Program-made: the position numbers and the translations under genes
Notes under the pieces: model-generated
Told to the model about the DNA's origin: nothing
The model's input: the letters and a program-made list of their open reading frames with translations, nothing else
Databases searched by the model: none
Shown: positions 4,945-19,468 of the stretch, in pieces
Layout: each line of letters opens with the position of its first letter
Numbering within the stretch: position 1 is the first letter of the stretch
NCBI GenBank assembly: GCA_030156895.1
Contig: JASGLP010000007.1
Location: 1-64,000 of the forward strand
Length of the DNA: 64,000 nucleotides
From: Eubacteriaceae bacterium
GTDB lineage: Bacteria; Bacillota; Clostridia; Eubacteriales; Eubacteriaceae
Reading direction: 5' to 3'

Positions 4945-6129
4945 TTACTGTAGCGTTTCAGTTTGTGGTAGATCGGCGGCTTTTGGTTTGAGAACAGCAT
5001 ACAGAATGGTTGCGCCAAAGAATGCGACAGTGGCAAATATAAATGGGAATTTCATGTTTTCGGTTTGTCCCAAAATGCCCGCTACAAAAGCGTAGAAATA
5101 AGCGGAAATAAAGCCTCCGATATTCATAAAGCTGACGATCATAGCTGAAGCTGTTGGAATAAGCGGACCAGGTACAAAGGAATCCAGGTCAATCATCAGA
5201 CTTGGGAAAATTAAACTGAATCCCATTCCAGATAAAGCGGCGCCAATATACATAAAGAGAATGGTTGTTCCGCTGGCGATACTAAGCATTGCCAGTGCCA
5301 TTAAAAGGAGTCCGACGGTGGCCAGATTCTTTTTTAAAATGCCAAATAGTTTTGCAAACAGTAAACCGGCAACCATACCGCCTATGGTAAAGGTTGTTAA
5401 CACCATTGCTGCGTCAGCAGTCGTTCCCATATCGTATGCAGCGATAAGGGATGACATATTGACGAGGAGAGGATAGTTTAACATCATTAATGTCAGAGCC
5501 ATAAAAGCGAATACCCAAACCATTTTAGGCATTTTCATTTTAGGAGCGTTTGTATCAGTGATAGGTGGTGCGGGCACTTTTGGTGGTTCGGGAATAAAGA
5601 AGACAAGCAGGAGTGTAACAATTCCTATTCCATGGGCCAGGAAAGCGTAATTCCAGTTAGATGCTGCAAAAACACCGCCAAGCAACTGGAAGAGGATTCC
5701 ACCGACATTTCCAACGACGCCGCTGATACCCATCATGGATGCACGTTCAGGACCGTCAAAAAAGCTGATAATTAATACGGCTCCTAATGGTGCCATGATC
5801 CCGATTGAAATACCGAAAATTGCTCTAAATAAAAGAATTGTTGTAAAATTGTCGATAAAATAGGGGGACATACCGGAAATTAAAAATAAGATCATACCAA
5901 CAAGCAACAAAGTTTTATATTTCACTTTTATTCCGGCAATTCGCCCGGAAACCAGAGTAGCAGGGACGGACAAAAGCGTTGGCAAAGTAGATACCAGTAA
6001 CAGCGTTGTAAAAGGAACTTCAGGAAAGGCTGCGGCAATACTGGCAATGGCAGGCGTAATAGTTCCAACAGCCATTCCGACAAAAAAGACAGATAAAATT
6101 GCAATCTTTAAAAAAGTCTTGTTTTTCAT
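4945..6129 (-). CDS. Major facilitator superfamily transporter
   Basis: 394 residues, almost entirely hydrophobic, with about 12 predicted membrane segments in two halves split by a short charged loop near residue 190 (PEPPKVPAPP). An MFS-type motif-A-like segment (SGRIAGIKVKYKT) follows the second helix. Start ATG is preceded by AGGAGGAAAA. It is transcribed away from the TetR gene at 6724, and a long inverted repeat lies in its upstream region, so control by that regulator is plausible. Substrate unknown: the sequence resembles the CynX/NimT or drug-export-like MFS group, but I cannot choose between them. Confidence 0.8.
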   Translation of the reverse strand: MKNKTFLKIAILSVFFVGMAVGTITPAIASIAAAFPEVPFTTLLLVSTLPTLLSVPATLVSGRIAGIKVKYKTLLLVGMILFLISGMSPYFIDNFTTILLFRAIFGISIGIMAPLGAVLIISFFDGPERASMMGISGVVGNVGGILFQLLGGVFAASNWNYAFLAHGIGIVTLLLVFFIPEPPKVPAPPITDTNAPKMKMPKMVWVFAFMALTLMMLNYPLLVNMSSLIAAYDMGTTADAAMVLTTFTIGGMVAGLLFAKLFGILKKNLATVGLLLMALAMLSIASGTTILFMYIGAALSGMGFSLIFPSLMIDLDSFVPGPLIPTASAMIVSFMNIGGFISAYFYAFVAGILGQTENMKFPFIFATVAFFGATILYAVLKPKAADLPQTETLQ

Positions 6130-13664: not shown

Positions 13665-14417
13665 TTAGCAAGAGCTGACCTGATCAGCAAAACATAGTCT
13701 GCGGATGTTTAAGCTACTGGCTGCGCCGGAAATAGTTGTTCCGAAGAAAAAAACATCTTTATCTAAATTCAGGTAAGATACAATGGAACCATTACATAAG
13801 GTGCTGCCAGTACATAGAATAACATCAGCCCATTCAATAGCGTCATCCATCGTATCTATCCCATCTTCAATGGTGACACCATAACGTTTTTCGCCGATAT
13901 TGGCAGGGTTTAGATCGAGAACACGCAGGGAGAAAGAGTGGCTTAATTGTTCAATCATGGCTGGCTGATAACCGACAAGCAGGATTTTTGGGTTTTGATA
14001 ATGGCTGGCGATAAATTCGTTGAGCTGTTTTGAACATAGCTCCGGGCCATTGTTTTTGCAATGAATAACATCAGTGCTAAAACCCAGATCATTTTTTAAA
14101 GCATTATAGGTCGCAATAAAAATCGAACGATTGTAGGAGTTGTCAATAATTGACATTTGAGAGATCTCTTTTAGACTTCCCTGGAAACAGGTTGGCGAAT
14201 CAGTGAAAGCCTGACCAGAGGAATTTCTGAATTTTGCCTGTATCATTACTTCTGATCCAGTCAGTATGGGGAAATCTTTTCGTTTTGTGATGCCGATGGC
14301 TTCTTCGGGGGTTAATGATTTACTGGTGATCGTAATCGTTTCATCATTCAATTGATGAGTGGTCAAAAGATCCTGGAAATCTTTTTGCAGGAGTGTGAAT
14401 AATTCGGACTTTGTCAT
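13665..14417 (-). CDS. DUF364/DUF4213-type protein (putative metal-chelation domain)
   Basis: 250 residues. The order fits the two-part family with an enolase-N-like DUF4213 domain followed by the Rossmann-like DUF364 domain: SDP-like SLKEIS region near 100, then KILLVGYQPAMIEQL near 155 and WADVILCTGSTLCNGS near 205. Members are often encoded near metal or corrinoid genes; the activity is not established. I chose ATG at 14417 because GAAAGGAAG precedes it; an upstream in-frame extension lacks a ribosome site. Several cysteines (ELCSKQ, ILCTG, TLCNG) might bind metal; this is inference. Confidence 0.6.
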   Translation of the reverse strand: MTKSELFTLLQKDFQDLLTTHQLNDETITITSKSLTPEEAIGITKRKDFPILTGSEVMIQAKFRNSSGQAFTDSPTCFQGSLKEISQMSIIDNSYNRSIFIATYNALKNDLGFSTDVIHCKNNGPELCSKQLNEFIASHYQNPKILLVGYQPAMIEQLSHSFSLRVLDLNPANIGEKRYGVTIEDGIDTMDDAIEWADVILCTGSTLCNGSIVSYLNLDKDVFFFGTTISGAASSLNIRRLCFADQVSSC

Positions 14418-14471
14418 TTTGCGCTTCCTTTCGAAATTAAAGAATGTGAAATAGCTAGCAATCAAACTAAG

Positions 14472-15158: not shown

Positions 15159-15187
15159 TTGACGTTCCTTTACATTGGTGCTAAACT
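15159..15187 (+). promoter_or_regulatory. Sigma-A-type promoter for methyl-THF methyltransferase
   Basis: TTGACG (15159-15164), 17-base spacer, TAAACT (15182-15187). The start of transcription would fall near 15194, which rules out translation starts upstream of that point and supports the ATG at 15261. Confidence 0.75.
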
Positions 15188-15260
15188 ATACCTGTGCACA
15201 ACAGTAAAAATTATGAAATGCACTAAACAAATTAGTAAAATTGATTATCTGGAGGCTAAC

Positions 15261-16058
15261 ATGATCATTATTGGCGAAAAAATCAATGGCGCCATTCCTT
15301 CCACCGGAAAAGCCATTGCCGAAAAAGATGCGGAATTTATCAGAAACCTTGCCATTAAACAGACAGAAGCAGGTGCGGACTATATCGATGTCTGTGCATC
15401 AGTGGATGATGACATTGAAATGGAAACGATGAAATGGCTGATTGACATTGTTCAGGACGCGACTGATGTACCGATTGCGGTAGACAGCCCAAATGTCATT
15501 ACATGTATCGAATCACTCAAACTTTGCAAGAAACCAGGTTTGTTTAATTCGGTTTCAATGGAAGGTGACAAAATTGATGCGGCATTTAAAGCGATTGCTG
15601 ATACAAAATGGGAATGTGTCGCCCTTCTTAATAGTGATAAAGGAATCCCTAAAACGGCAAAAGACCGTTTGGATGTTTTCCATGACATTATGGCCAAATG
15701 TAAGGAGTATGGTATTGATCCTTCCCGCATGCATATTGATCCATTGATTGAAATGCTTTGCACTTCAGAAGATGGGATCAATATGGTAACTGAAGTAATC
15801 CGTGAAATTAAAAAAGCATATCCAACCATTCATGTTACAGGTGCGGTATCCAATATCTCATTTAACTTACCAGCCCGTCGAATAGCGAACCAGGCTTTTG
15901 CCGTTTTGGCGATGAACGCCGGCATGGATTCCTTCATCCTGGATCCTTTAAACAAGGACATGATGGGAATGCTTTTCGCCACCGAAGCCATGATGGGTGA
16001 AGATGAGTACTGTATGGAATATATTGGTGCTTTCCGTGAAGGAATCTTTACAAAATAA
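15261..16058 (+). CDS. Methyltetrahydrofolate:corrinoid protein methyltransferase (AcsE/MtgA/MtvA family)
   Basis: 265 residues forming the pterin-binding TIM barrel of this family. It begins MIIIGEKINGAIPSTGKAIA, the family's pterin-site start, with ADYIDVCASVDDD near 35 and a conserved VDSPN near 75 that matches the barrel strand contacting the substrate. Proteins of this type move a methyl group between a cob(I)alamin protein and THF; in acetogens they complete O-, N- or betaine-demethylation by making methyl-THF. GGAGG sits 5 bases before the ATG. The cognate corrinoid protein gene is downstream beyond a 285-base structured spacer. Which methyl donor system it serves depends on the partner, here probably the UroD-type enzyme at 17371. 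Confidence 0.9.
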   Translation: MIIIGEKINGAIPSTGKAIAEKDAEFIRNLAIKQTEAGADYIDVCASVDDDIEMETMKWLIDIVQDATDVPIAVDSPNVITCIESLKLCKKPGLFNSVSMEGDKIDAAFKAIADTKWECVALLNSDKGIPKTAKDRLDVFHDIMAKCKEYGIDPSRMHIDPLIEMLCTSEDGINMVTEVIREIKKAYPTIHVTGAVSNISFNLPARRIANQAFAVLAMNAGMDSFILDPLNKDMMGMLFATEAMMGEDEYCMEYIGAFREGIFTK

Positions 16059-16241: not shown

Positions 16242-16343
16242 TCAGACGAAATATATAAGTTATTTGTGAAAAATAACTTTCTTTACCACTCACTTTGCAC
16301 ACTCAAAGAAAATAAAAATAACTATTCTAAGGAGAAAGAAAAA

Positions 16344-16973
16344 ATGTCAACAATTGCAGAAGTAAAAACACTGGTTGAAACTGGAAAATCAAAAAAAGTA
16401 GGCGCAGCCGTACAGGGCGCTTTGGATGCGGGTTTAGCAGCTCAGTCGATCCTTGATGGTATGATTGAGTCAATGGGCGTTGTCGGAGAAAAATTCTCAG
16501 CCGGTGAAATTTTTGTACCAGAAATGCTGATCGCTGCCAAAGCGATGTCTAAAGGTGTTGAAGTTTTAAAACCGGTTATGGCTGGAGACAACGCTACATC
16601 ATTAGGAACCTGTGTTATGGGTACCGTTGCCGGTGACCTTCACGATATTGGTAAAAACCTGGTTGTTATGATGCTTGAAAGCTCAGGATTTGATATGGTT
16701 GATTTGGGTGTTGATGTACCAGCTGACAAGTTCGTTGAAGCGGTTAAAGAAAATGACAACGTTGTTTTAGTTGCCTGCTCAGGCCTTTTAACAACTACCA
16801 TGCCAGCCCTTAAAGAAGCTGTTCAAACTGTAAAAGCGGCATATCCGGATATGAAAGTAATTGTTGGTGGCGCTCCTGTTACGCCTGAATATGCAGCAGA
16901 AATTGGAGCCGATGGCTATGCTCCAGATGCTGGATCATCAGCAGCAAAAGCTAAGCAGTTAATTGGCGCATAA
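16344..16973 (+). CDS. Corrinoid protein of methyltransferase system (MtgC/MtvC/MttC family)
   Basis: 209 residues with the two standard domains: a four-helix methionine-synthase-type cap (about 1-85) and a Rossmann-like cobalamin domain carrying the DxHxxG motif as Asp98-Leu-His100-Asp-Ile-Gly103; His100 is the expected lower axial ligand. The later GGAPVTPEYAAEIGADGY stretch lines the nucleotide tail. The protein carries the methyl group between the substrate-specific methyltransferase and the methyl-THF enzyme at 15261. The ATG at 16344 follows AAGGAGAAAG; an upstream in-frame extension runs into the structured spacer and does not resemble the family. A perfect terminator follows. Confidence 0.93.
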   Translation: MSTIAEVKTLVETGKSKKVGAAVQGALDAGLAAQSILDGMIESMGVVGEKFSAGEIFVPEMLIAAKAMSKGVEVLKPVMAGDNATSLGTCVMGTVAGDLHDIGKNLVVMMLESSGFDMVDLGVDVPADKFVEAVKENDNVVLVACSGLLTTTMPALKEAVQTVKAAYPDMKVIVGGAPVTPEYAAEIGADGYAPDAGSSAAKAKQLIGA

Positions 16974-17370: not shown

Positions 17371-18390
17371 ATGACTGCACATCTAACACAAAAGGAGAAT
17401 TTTTTACGAGTGGCCACTGGCCAAATGCCAGAATATGTTCCGATTTCTACTTTCGGTATGCCGGGCGTTGAACCCTTGATGACCATGGCTGATCCATGTA
17501 TTCTCGGTGATTTTAGAGGACCGGGTGGCGGAATTGATCCCTGGGGAGTGACTTTTGTCACTGGGGAAGAAATAGATTTTGCAGCGCTTCCAAAGCCTAA
17601 TGATTTCATCTTGACAGATGTCACCAAATGGCGTGATGTCATCAAAGCACCTGATTATTCGGGTTTTGATTGGGAAGCAGCAGCACGAAATGATCGCCAA
17701 AAATTCGTGAAAGACCCTGATCAGACAGCATTTGTTTTGGCTGGCTACGCTGATCTTTTCCAGCAGTTTATTGGCTTTATGGGCTTTACAGAAGGCTTAT
17801 GTGCAATTTACGAGGAAACAGAAGAAGTGGAAGAACTGATGGATTATATGTTGGAACATTCCTTGTATATTACGAAGAATCTACTGCATTACTATAAACC
17901 CGATGGATATTATCTTTTAGATGACACGGCTTCAAAGCTGCAGCCATTTATTTCGCCAAAGATTTTCAAGGAATTATTAGTTCCGCGATATAAACAGTGT
18001 CTTGATCTAGTGAGGGAAGAAGGCATTCCGATTTTTTATCATAATTGTGGTCGCTGTGAAGATTTGATTCCTGATATGGTGGATATTGGTGTAAATGTTT
18101 GGGATCCAGCGCAAATAGAAAATGACCTTGTGGCAATTAAAGAAAAATTTGGACCCAAATTAGCGATCAATGGCGGATATGAGTATCGAATGCCTGCAAC
18201 ATGGCCAAATGTTGACGAGGAAGAAGTGCGACAGACAGTTAGAAAGACATACGATAAAATGGCGCCAAATGGCGGATTTATTTTCAGCGGTATGGTGACA
18301 TCTTTGGATTTTGGCGATCCCAAAGTGATTGAAGTCAATGGCTGGATTTTTGATGAAGCCCAGAAATTAAGTAAAACTGTTTATCAGTAA
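17371..18390 (+). CDS. Uroporphyrinogen decarboxylase-family methyltransferase (MtvB/MtaA-like)
   Basis: 339 residues of the UroD superfamily, which includes corrinoid-dependent methyltransferases such as MtaA and MtbA and, to my knowledge, the O-demethylase methyltransferases of acetogens (MtvB type). A zinc-site candidate is His224-Asn-Cys226-Gly-Arg-Cys229 on the strand where MtaA has its HxC ligands. No tetrapyrrole-specific N-terminal signature of HemE is seen. With the corrinoid protein and methyl-THF enzyme just upstream it completes a three-component methyl-transfer path from an unknown methyl donor, plausibly a methoxylated aromatic compound, to THF. The reductive activator of the corrinoid protein is not in the window. 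Confidence 0.82.
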   Translation: MTAHLTQKENFLRVATGQMPEYVPISTFGMPGVEPLMTMADPCILGDFRGPGGGIDPWGVTFVTGEEIDFAALPKPNDFILTDVTKWRDVIKAPDYSGFDWEAAARNDRQKFVKDPDQTAFVLAGYADLFQQFIGFMGFTEGLCAIYEETEEVEELMDYMLEHSLYITKNLLHYYKPDGYYLLDDTASKLQPFISPKIFKELLVPRYKQCLDLVREEGIPIFYHNCGRCEDLIPDMVDIGVNVWDPAQIENDLVAIKEKFGPKLAINGGYEYRMPATWPNVDEEEVRQTVRKTYDKMAPNGGFIFSGMVTSLDFGDPKVIEVNGWIFDEAQKLSKTVYQ

Positions 18391-18409: not shown

Positions 18410-19006
18410 ATGAAAATTATTATTTTTGGCGGTTTTTTAGGATCAGGAAAAACGAGTGTCGTGATTCAACTGGCTAAACATTTAATTGGTGATAATTTAG
18501 AAAATCAGACTAAGGTCGTTATTCTTGAGAATGAAATTGGCGATGTTGGTATTGATGATAAACTTTTGAAATCGAGCGGCTACGAAGTTGAGAACCTTTT
18601 TTCGGGATGTGTTTGTTGCACCTTGTCAGGAGAATTGGTATTAGGGATTCATCGAATCCAAAAGGATTTTAATCCGGATACAATCATCCTTGAGGCGACA
18701 GGGGTTGCTTTTCCTGATAATATTCGAGAAACGATTCAAAAATCAATGCCGGAAATTGAATGTCGTGTGATCTGCTTAACAGATGCTAAAAGGTGGATGC
18801 GACTTTTAAAACCTATGGAAATGCTTTTAAATGATCAGCTTAATGCAGCAGACGCCATCCTGCTAAACAAAATAAACCTTGTCGATAATGAGACAGTCAT
18901 GGCGGTTGAGGAATCGATCAGGACATTTAATGATGAAGCAGTTCTTTATAAGATTAATGCCATGGAAACAATCCATCCGGACATTATTGAAACCATTATT
19001 GGTTAG
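18410..19006 (+). CDS. CobW/COG0523-like G3E GTPase domain, short form
   Basis: 198 residues covering only the GTPase domain. Walker A is GGFLGSGKTS at 7-16, an ENEIGDVGID switch region follows near 45, the metal-binding CxCC motif is Cys67-x-Cys69-Cys70, and LLNKINLVD near 145 supplies the NKxD guanine-specificity motif (NKIN). COG0523 proteins insert or deliver metal ions such as zinc or cobalt into target enzymes. Typical members have 300 or more residues with a His-rich linker and a C-terminal CobW_C domain, both missing here but present in the next gene in the same reading frame, beyond one TAG. It lies 19 bases after the UroD-type gene, so loading zinc into that enzyme is a reasonable guess. 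Confidence 0.85.
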   Translation: MKIIIFGGFLGSGKTSVVIQLAKHLIGDNLENQTKVVILENEIGDVGIDDKLLKSSGYEVENLFSGCVCCTLSGELVLGIHRIQKDFNPDTIILEATGVAFPDNIRETIQKSMPEIECRVICLTDAKRWMRLLKPMEMLLNDQLNAADAILLNKINLVDNETVMAVEESIRTFNDEAVLYKINAMETIHPDIIETIIG

Positions 19007-19018
19007 AAAGGAAGCATT

Positions 19019-19468
19019 ATGCCTAAACAGCATCAAGCAGGGACATGCAATTGCCATGATGAACACCATCATCATGATCACGCGCATCATGATCACCATC
19101 ATCACCTTGAGCAAAAAAAGCATTCGGTGAAAATTCATACCCATGACAGCTCTGTTATTGGTTCTTTCAAAATAGAGATGGGTGAGAGCCTTTCAGTTAC
19201 TGAAAGCAAAATTGAAGACTGTTTGAAAAAAATTGCCGAAGGGGTTGATTCGTGTGGTGGTATAATCGGTCATATCAAAGGCTTTGTTCAATACCAGGGT
19301 GAAAACAGCATGCTGTCAATTACAGATGAAGAAGTCACGAAAAAACGTGGTTTATCTAACTTGTGTACATGTGAGTGTGTTGCAATTGTTTTTAATGTAG
19401 CACCCCCGGAACTTGAGAAAATAATCACCAATGAACTGCTCAAATTGTTGCCGGTTATGAAAGAATAA
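19019..19468 (+). CDS. His-rich protein with CobW_C-like domain, apparent second half of the GTPase
   Basis: 149 residues. Residues 10-35 form a Cys/His-rich tract (CNCHDEHHHHDHAHHDHHHH) of the sort that links the two domains of COG0523 proteins. The remainder, including SFKIEMGESLSVTESKIEDCL and IIGHIKGFVQYQGE, matches the pattern of a CobW C-terminal domain (fold start, long helix, then 'KGfv'). A CTCEC cysteine motif follows near 122. It has its own ribosome site (AAAGGA, 6 bases before ATG), so it is probably made as a separate chain that binds metal for the GTPase. It is in frame with that gene, separated by TAG and four sense codons. Confidence 0.65.
   Translation: MPKQHQAGTCNCHDEHHHHDHAHHDHHHHLEQKKHSVKIHTHDSSVIGSFKIEMGESLSVTESKIEDCLKKIAEGVDSCGGIIGHIKGFVQYQGENSMLSITDEEVTKKRGLSNLCTCECVAIVFNVAPPELEKIITNELLKLLPVMKE

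Follow-up and report, generated by a model that had tools for sequence, protein, structure and literature searches.

Two separate neighbouring genes in a Eubacteriaceae bacterium probably code for a COG0523 metal chaperone in two halves, a single-domain GTPase and a CobW_C-like partner protein. The pair lies in the window (the whole stretch of DNA that was analysed, 64,000 nucleotides, positions 1 to 64,000 of the forward strand of contig JASGLP010000007.1) of an 85% complete assembly of 101 contigs (GCA_030156895.1), which holds three such GTPase/partner pairs in addition to one fused COG0523. With this analysis, one candidate for amber recoding drops out, and in its place stands a two-gene COG0523 system that is open to testing and tied, in the host family, to methyltransferase operons. 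Its lasting point is a recurrent split of COG0523 with a partner family that is unnamed in the searched releases of Pfam and NCBIfam.

The gene pair and the TAG between its halves

An earlier sequence-only reading had described a GTPase half ending at TAG (19004-19006), followed four codons later and in the same frame by a His-rich open reading frame with AAAGGA ahead of its ATG, and had weighed two explanations, a two-subunit chaperone and amber read-through. The description itself is borne out: the open reading frames code for 198 and 149 aa, and past the TAG the junction reads AAAGGA, a 6-nt spacer (AGCATT) and the partner ATG. The parts of the pair are as follows:

18410-19006, forward strand: single-domain COG0523 (CobW-type) GTPase of 198 aa, stop codon TAG, matched by Pfam cobW
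18431-18454, forward strand: Walker A motif GFLGSGKT within the GTPase, read from the sequence
18608-18619, forward strand: CVCC within the GTPase, the COG0523 metal-binding CxCC motif
18866-18877, forward strand: NKIN within the GTPase, at the position of NKxD
19004-19006, forward strand: TAG, to all appearances the ordinary stop codon of the GTPase gene
19007-19012, forward strand: AAAGGA, likely ribosome-binding site of the partner gene, 6 nt ahead of its ATG
19019-19468, forward strand: partner protein of 149 aa, with a Cys/His-rich N-terminus and a divergent CobW_C-like domain
19046-19105, forward strand: candidate metal-binding segment CNCHDEHHHHDHAHHDHHHH, partner residues 10-29, from the sequence and its relatives
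19268-19279, forward strand: GHIK signature of the partner, from the 37-row alignment A5 and the profile alignment

Occasional read-through of the TAG (via pyrrolysine or suppression) would yield some fused, one-chain COG0523 protein, in keeping with the common frame of both halves and the absence of any further stop across the junction, with the location of the pair in a corrinoid methyltransferase operon, with the same domain order in fused COG0523 proteins, and with the existence of natural fusions of the same domain pair (L117, L168, L169). The junctions of related pairs render this reading extremely improbable. A search for the GTPase in 40 genomes of the family found a match in 27, and the 81 loci whose junctions were read (L001-L041, L053-L092) comprise 58 single-domain and 23 full-length GTPases; this is not a random set, L053-L072 having been picked for long frames and L073-L092 being the best remaining short ones. 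Neither the TAG nor the frame is conserved: the 13 closest pairs (window included) stop at TGA (6), TAG (only 4, where the same TAG had been proposed as a check) and TAA (3), and their second genes start in frame 0 (2), frame 1 (4) and frame 2 (7). Over all 52 pairs, the stops are TGA in 26, TAA in 18 and TAG in 8, and frame 0 occurs in 9, i.e., no more often than expected by chance. Six of these nine frame-0 pairs are open into the partner, not only behind TAG (the window) but also behind TAA (L021, L022, L027) and TGA (L034, L035), and the combination of TAG, frame 0 and an open path is found among the 52 pairs in the window only. The nearest relative, L005 (88% identical), has the junction TAG AAA GGT TGA ATT ATG, sharing with the window both the TAG and the AAAGG right behind it, but carrying an in-frame TGA three codons later, so that read-through there would end at once. 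Every stop and every frame is represented in this set, and the window is a normal case within it.

The partner gene moreover has a likely ribosome-binding site of its own, and translational coupling or re-initiation at this gene is plausible. When the first in-frame ATG is taken as the start, 28 of the 52 second genes overlap the GTPase gene (12 at -8, 7 at -4), 16 begin 0-30 nt past its stop, 7 begin further on and 1 has no ATG; this ATG-only recount is used here, as counting from the first ATG, GTG or TTG overstates overlaps (34/52 at or before the end of the stop).

A search of the genome for pyrrolysine genes, likewise proposed earlier, covered PylS and PylD, and in the host genome (85% complete) neither gave a match over cut-off, PylS_Nterm giving 0 matches. 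Across the 19 genomes of the genus, PylS_Cterm and PylD each exceed the cut-off in one, the same genome in both cases (G003), whose pair has TGA at its junction (L015). Weaker PylS_Cterm and PylD matches, present in all 19 genus genomes and likewise in 12 and 9, respectively, of 14 control genomes, are taken for other proteins. The three MttB-like genes of the host genome all score below the pyrrolysine-type cut-off, and none has an internal stop. Amber read-through was rejected on the varied stops and frames, the TGA of L005, the lack of PylS over cut-off and the uninterrupted MttB-like genes. These results contradict the second of the two earlier explanations and support the first, the relatives having just the different stop codons and clear separate genes that had been named as evidence against read-through. 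The TAG appears to be a normal stop codon that separates two distinct, adjacent genes.

The single TAG between in-frame halves might also mark a once-fused gene recently broken by a nonsense mutation (a pseudogene, or a sequencing error). This has practically no likelihood in view of the full single-domain length of the GTPase half, of the split seen in 12/12 nearest relatives with differing junctions, and of purifying selection on the second gene in the tested pairs and on the first wherever a ratio was obtainable. For the second gene, dN/dS is 0.13-0.26 by NG86 in seven locus pairs and 0.15-0.37 by YN00 in the six where it was computable; for the first gene it is below 1 in six locus pairs, the comparison of the window with L005 being saturated. 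A pseudogene was accordingly rejected on the recurrent split and dN/dS < 1, and the second open reading frame is a real gene, since it recurs behind the GTPase in all 12 nearest relatives with low dN/dS.

The GTPase and the identity of its partner

The first gene product matches Pfam cobW over residues 3-177 of 198 (E 1.2e-35, 123.1 bits, cut-off 20.7), with Walker A, CxCC and Walker B with its Glu all intact. An intact NKxD is absent, the window reading NKIN and L005 NKVN, whereas NKxD is kept in 54 of the 58 single-domain loci; the window protein is therefore called a COG0523-type G domain with a variant fourth motif, and its guanine specificity, like that of L005, is putative. The C-terminal domain that full-length COG0523 proteins have in their own chain is encoded here by a separate open reading frame.

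The best NCBIfam match of the GTPase is NF041053 (CobW-related selenoprotein), at 86.8 bits against a cut-off of 180, so the window GTPase is not a member of that family, which had no match over cut-off in any of 299 genomes of the phylum. The NF041053 model is also a single G domain (195 positions), but with selenocysteine in the motif where the window GTPase has Cys. In structural comparison, the GTPase half matches UreG and HypB best, which are likewise single-domain G3E GTPases, UreG receiving metal-binding help in trans from UreE; these systems serve nickel enzymes, unlike the clients proposed below for the window pair. The fused COG0523 GTPases (YjiA, CobW, ZigA) have in common with the pair a G domain with GxxGxGKT and CxCC and a CobW_C-like C-terminal domain, but are one chain instead of two genes. 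According to the accessible part of the COG0523 survey of Haas et al. 2009 (PMC2770081), the CxCC motif and common His-rich stretches are features of this family.

The earlier assignment of the second half as CobW_C-like did not follow from standard searches, in which the window partner had no CobW_C match at E<=0.1 in Pfam, where a single hit to an unrelated family fell below threshold, and no match in NCBIfam; it gained support from a profile comparison and, more weakly, from the predicted fold. In the 37-member alignment A5, the G, H and K of GHIK and one Ser are invariant. A partner profile (93 rows, some from overlapping loci) scored 32 against the C-tails of 42 fused COG0523 proteins (E 1.8e-5 to 3.4e-5), compared with at most 15.2 for 100 column shuffles and 11.6 for the reversed profile, and placed GHIK over the R-x-K-G of CobW_C; an earlier comparison with fewer sequences had been weak (probability 15%). 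On this sequence evidence, the partner appears to be a remote relative of CobW_C with a GHIK signature in place of the R-x-K-G of fused proteins, CobW_C-like and under the Pfam cut-off rather than a CobW_C member.

An alternative to a CobW_C relationship would be a His-rich metal store without kinship to CobW_C, comparable to UreE in its role, that lies by chance beside a single-domain GTPase, and UreG and HypB do likewise work as single G domains. The Pfam CobW_C cut-off was passed by all 10 of the fused C-tails checked, so the yardstick is sound, and by none of the partners scanned (37 cores and 10 full-length proteins). Among the 37 cores, CobW_C was found in 2 at E<=1 (best 0.0045) along with 21 other families in one member each; it was absent from 9 of the 10 full-length partners and was the only Pfam match of the tenth, L017 (E 0.0063, 16.8 bits, cut-off 22). 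We nevertheless consider an unrelated store unlikely, as it leaves unexplained the profile score above all shuffles, the register of GHIK with R-x-K-G, and the GHLK or GHVK domain that L117, L168 and L169 hold at the very position of CobW_C.

Structure prediction gave a modest match. The partner model has a mean pLDDT of 72, with low confidence in the tail, and three YjiA entries stand among its ten best PDB entries (rmsd 3.8-3.9 over 94-95 residues), at Z 6.7-6.8, i.e., below Z 8 and below the level safe alone; this match could reflect a common alpha/beta arrangement. Foldseek found no PDB entry at E<=0.001 for the partner model, its top rows being unrelated (FtsA, HPPK, ACT-like). A single-chain model of both halves matched YjiA at residues 1-210 only, leaving the second half uncovered, and therefore lends no support to a YjiA-like packing; 46 of the 50 entries in its structure list end by residue 210, and two IcmF and two Shulin entries reach 306-352. 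Folding used alignment A3, in which short pieces of some partner rows are misplaced into the GTPase part; the misaligned alignments A2 and A4 were left out, and an X in partner L012 was written as A for alignment.

Pairing of the two genes across genomes

The two-gene GTPase/partner arrangement recurs in many anaerobic bacteria. The partner lies behind the GTPase in 12/12 nearest relatives, and a GHIK partner starts between -40 and +150 nt from the GTPase stop in 52 of the 58 single-domain loci, scans of the whole available stretches finding none in the other six (L020, L023, L024, L026, L028, L087). In a partner-blind test on the 30 best NF041053 matches from 299 genomes of the phylum, the partner is next door to 11/11 GTPase frames of up to 227 aa and to 0/19 of those of at least 292 aa. 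Conversely, of 398 genomes of the phylum searched with the partner only, 25 contained a total of 37 matches; of the 32 of these loci that were examined (two of which, L095 and L118, come from the host genome), 29 adjoin a GTPase on the same strand and 3 are fused to a G domain. These three fusions (L117, L168, L169) encode a G domain and a GHLK or GHVK domain within a single frame, 369-386 aa long. In the 81 genomes of the phylum of a Synergistaceae genome that carries the pair, the partner was found in one, already known, and a scan of viral contigs with the partner found no relative. Searches of the open-licence literature, which leaves out most subscription papers, brought up no account of a COG0523 protein split into a gene pair.

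Several loci depart from the common layout. Five of those without a partner (L020, L023, L024, L026, L028) belong to another genus, where the GTPases may work alone or the partner may lie elsewhere. Near its N-terminus, the GTPase of L087 and L132 has an expanded QIKSE repeat; it lacks a partner within a 20-kb stretch and is perhaps a decaying copy. The CobW-type G domain fusions (L117:721-1878, also seen as L129, L168 and L169) have no His-rich stretch between the domains. In L101 (1198-2373), the partner domain shares an open frame with a DUF2284 predicted metal-binding domain.

Operon context and a proposed role in metal delivery

The sequence-only reading had also placed the pair in a corrinoid methyltransferase operon, and Pfam and NCBIfam matches of the same-strand upstream genes confirm this:

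15159-16058, forward strand: MeTr-like methyltransferase of the operon (NF005719, 340.7 bits)
16266-16973, forward strand: corrinoid protein of the operon, B12-binding, MtgC/MtbC-like but below those cut-offs
17371-18390, forward strand: URO-D-type methyltransferase, directly upstream of the pair

The first of these frames shows homology only from residue 35 on, so its true start is probably near 15261; in the second, homology runs from about residue 30-35, and the true start is probably internal, near 16344.

A URO-D-type homologue, 81-93% identical, stands upstream of the pair in 12/12 nearest relatives. A homologue of the methyltransferases or of the corrinoid protein of the window was found, in the stretch examined, at 39 of the 51 other pair loci in addition to the window itself. 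The remaining 12 (L034, L036-L038, L040, L041, L074, L080, L083-L086) have no such homologue in their stretches, which for many loci are short (about 3.5-4.6 kb), so that some of these negatives may be cut off; ten neighbour proteins from five of the 12 were scanned against Pfam, and none belongs to a methyltransferase family. In view of these loci and neighbours, the link to methyltransferase operons is strong in the host family and not general outside it. A comparable neighbourhood is on record for COG0523 subfamily 13, whose genes adjoin corrinoid-dependent methyltransferases, including zinc enzymes and, in one case, a clostridial MeTr neighbour (Haas et al. 2009, PMC2770081); a separate partner gene is not mentioned in the accessible part of that paper.

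In our reading, the first gene makes a complete single-domain GTPase ending at a normal TAG, and the second, started from its own ribosome-binding site right behind this stop, probably by translational coupling, makes the partner with its divergent CobW_C-like domain and its Cys/His-rich tail. The sequences themselves show the split into two genes, their constant pairing, the remote kinship of the partner with the CobW_C domain of fused COG0523 proteins and, within the host family, the linkage to corrinoid methyltransferase operons. By analogy with COG0523, UreG and HypB (PMC2770081, PMC7689651), the two proteins may form a complex equivalent to a fused COG0523, in which the Cys/His tail would collect a metal ion (most likely zinc, possibly cobalt). 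The GTPase cycle together with the CxCC site would pass this ion to, or install it in, a client from the operon, either the methyltransferase or the corrinoid protein, and GTP hydrolysis by the G domain would release it there. Metal binding and transfer by the pair are thus predictions from the family and the Cys/His tail, and delivery to corrinoid methyltransferases would be their putative purpose.

The alternative that the pair activates the corrinoid or handles cobalt, rather than delivering zinc, is conceivable but rather doubtful. Many pairs adjoin corrinoid proteins, and, as described in the accessible part of PMC7689651, CobW acts as a chaperone for Co(II), and MeaB gates the insertion of B12; the same source, however, ties zinc to many COG0523 subgroups, and MtaA and MtaB, encoded beside archaeal COG0523 genes, are zinc enzymes according to the accessible part of PMC2770081. 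Two zinc-site patterns (E-x14-E-x20-H, and H-x-C followed 60-90 residues later by a Cys) are absent from the URO-D-type protein of the window, which is no evidence against zinc. Since the halves of the proposed metal chaperone are separate proteins, each can be probed directly, to learn which of them holds the metal, which one recognises the client, and whether this client is the corrinoid protein or a zinc methyltransferase.

In a broader perspective, single-domain COG0523 GTPases and their GHIK partners may, with about even chances, constitute a distinct and undescribed class of obligate two-protein metal chaperones, in which the CobW_C half and the His-rich store form a separate, exchangeable subunit and, in acetogen-type Bacillota, several pairs per cell serve different corrinoid methyltransferase systems.

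Two further features of these neighbourhoods were observed. In the Synergistaceae MAG contig JAISYN010000189.1 (L035:5418-6470), one in-frame TAG (5901-5903) breaks the gene of a URO-D-type methyltransferase that lies immediately downstream of the pair; the stretches before and after this TAG are both homologous to the window protein. This gene is a better amber candidate than the window junction, but the likeliest causes of its TAG are damage to the gene or a faulty assembly, since its genome (G437) has no PylS over cut-off; a tRNA scan found none in L035 and none in the window. Upstream of the operon in the window, on the opposite strand (13665-14465, reverse), lies a gene for a DUF364 protein (putative heavy-metal chelation in Pfam), and a 70% identical DUF364 protein is encoded upstream of the same operon in L125.
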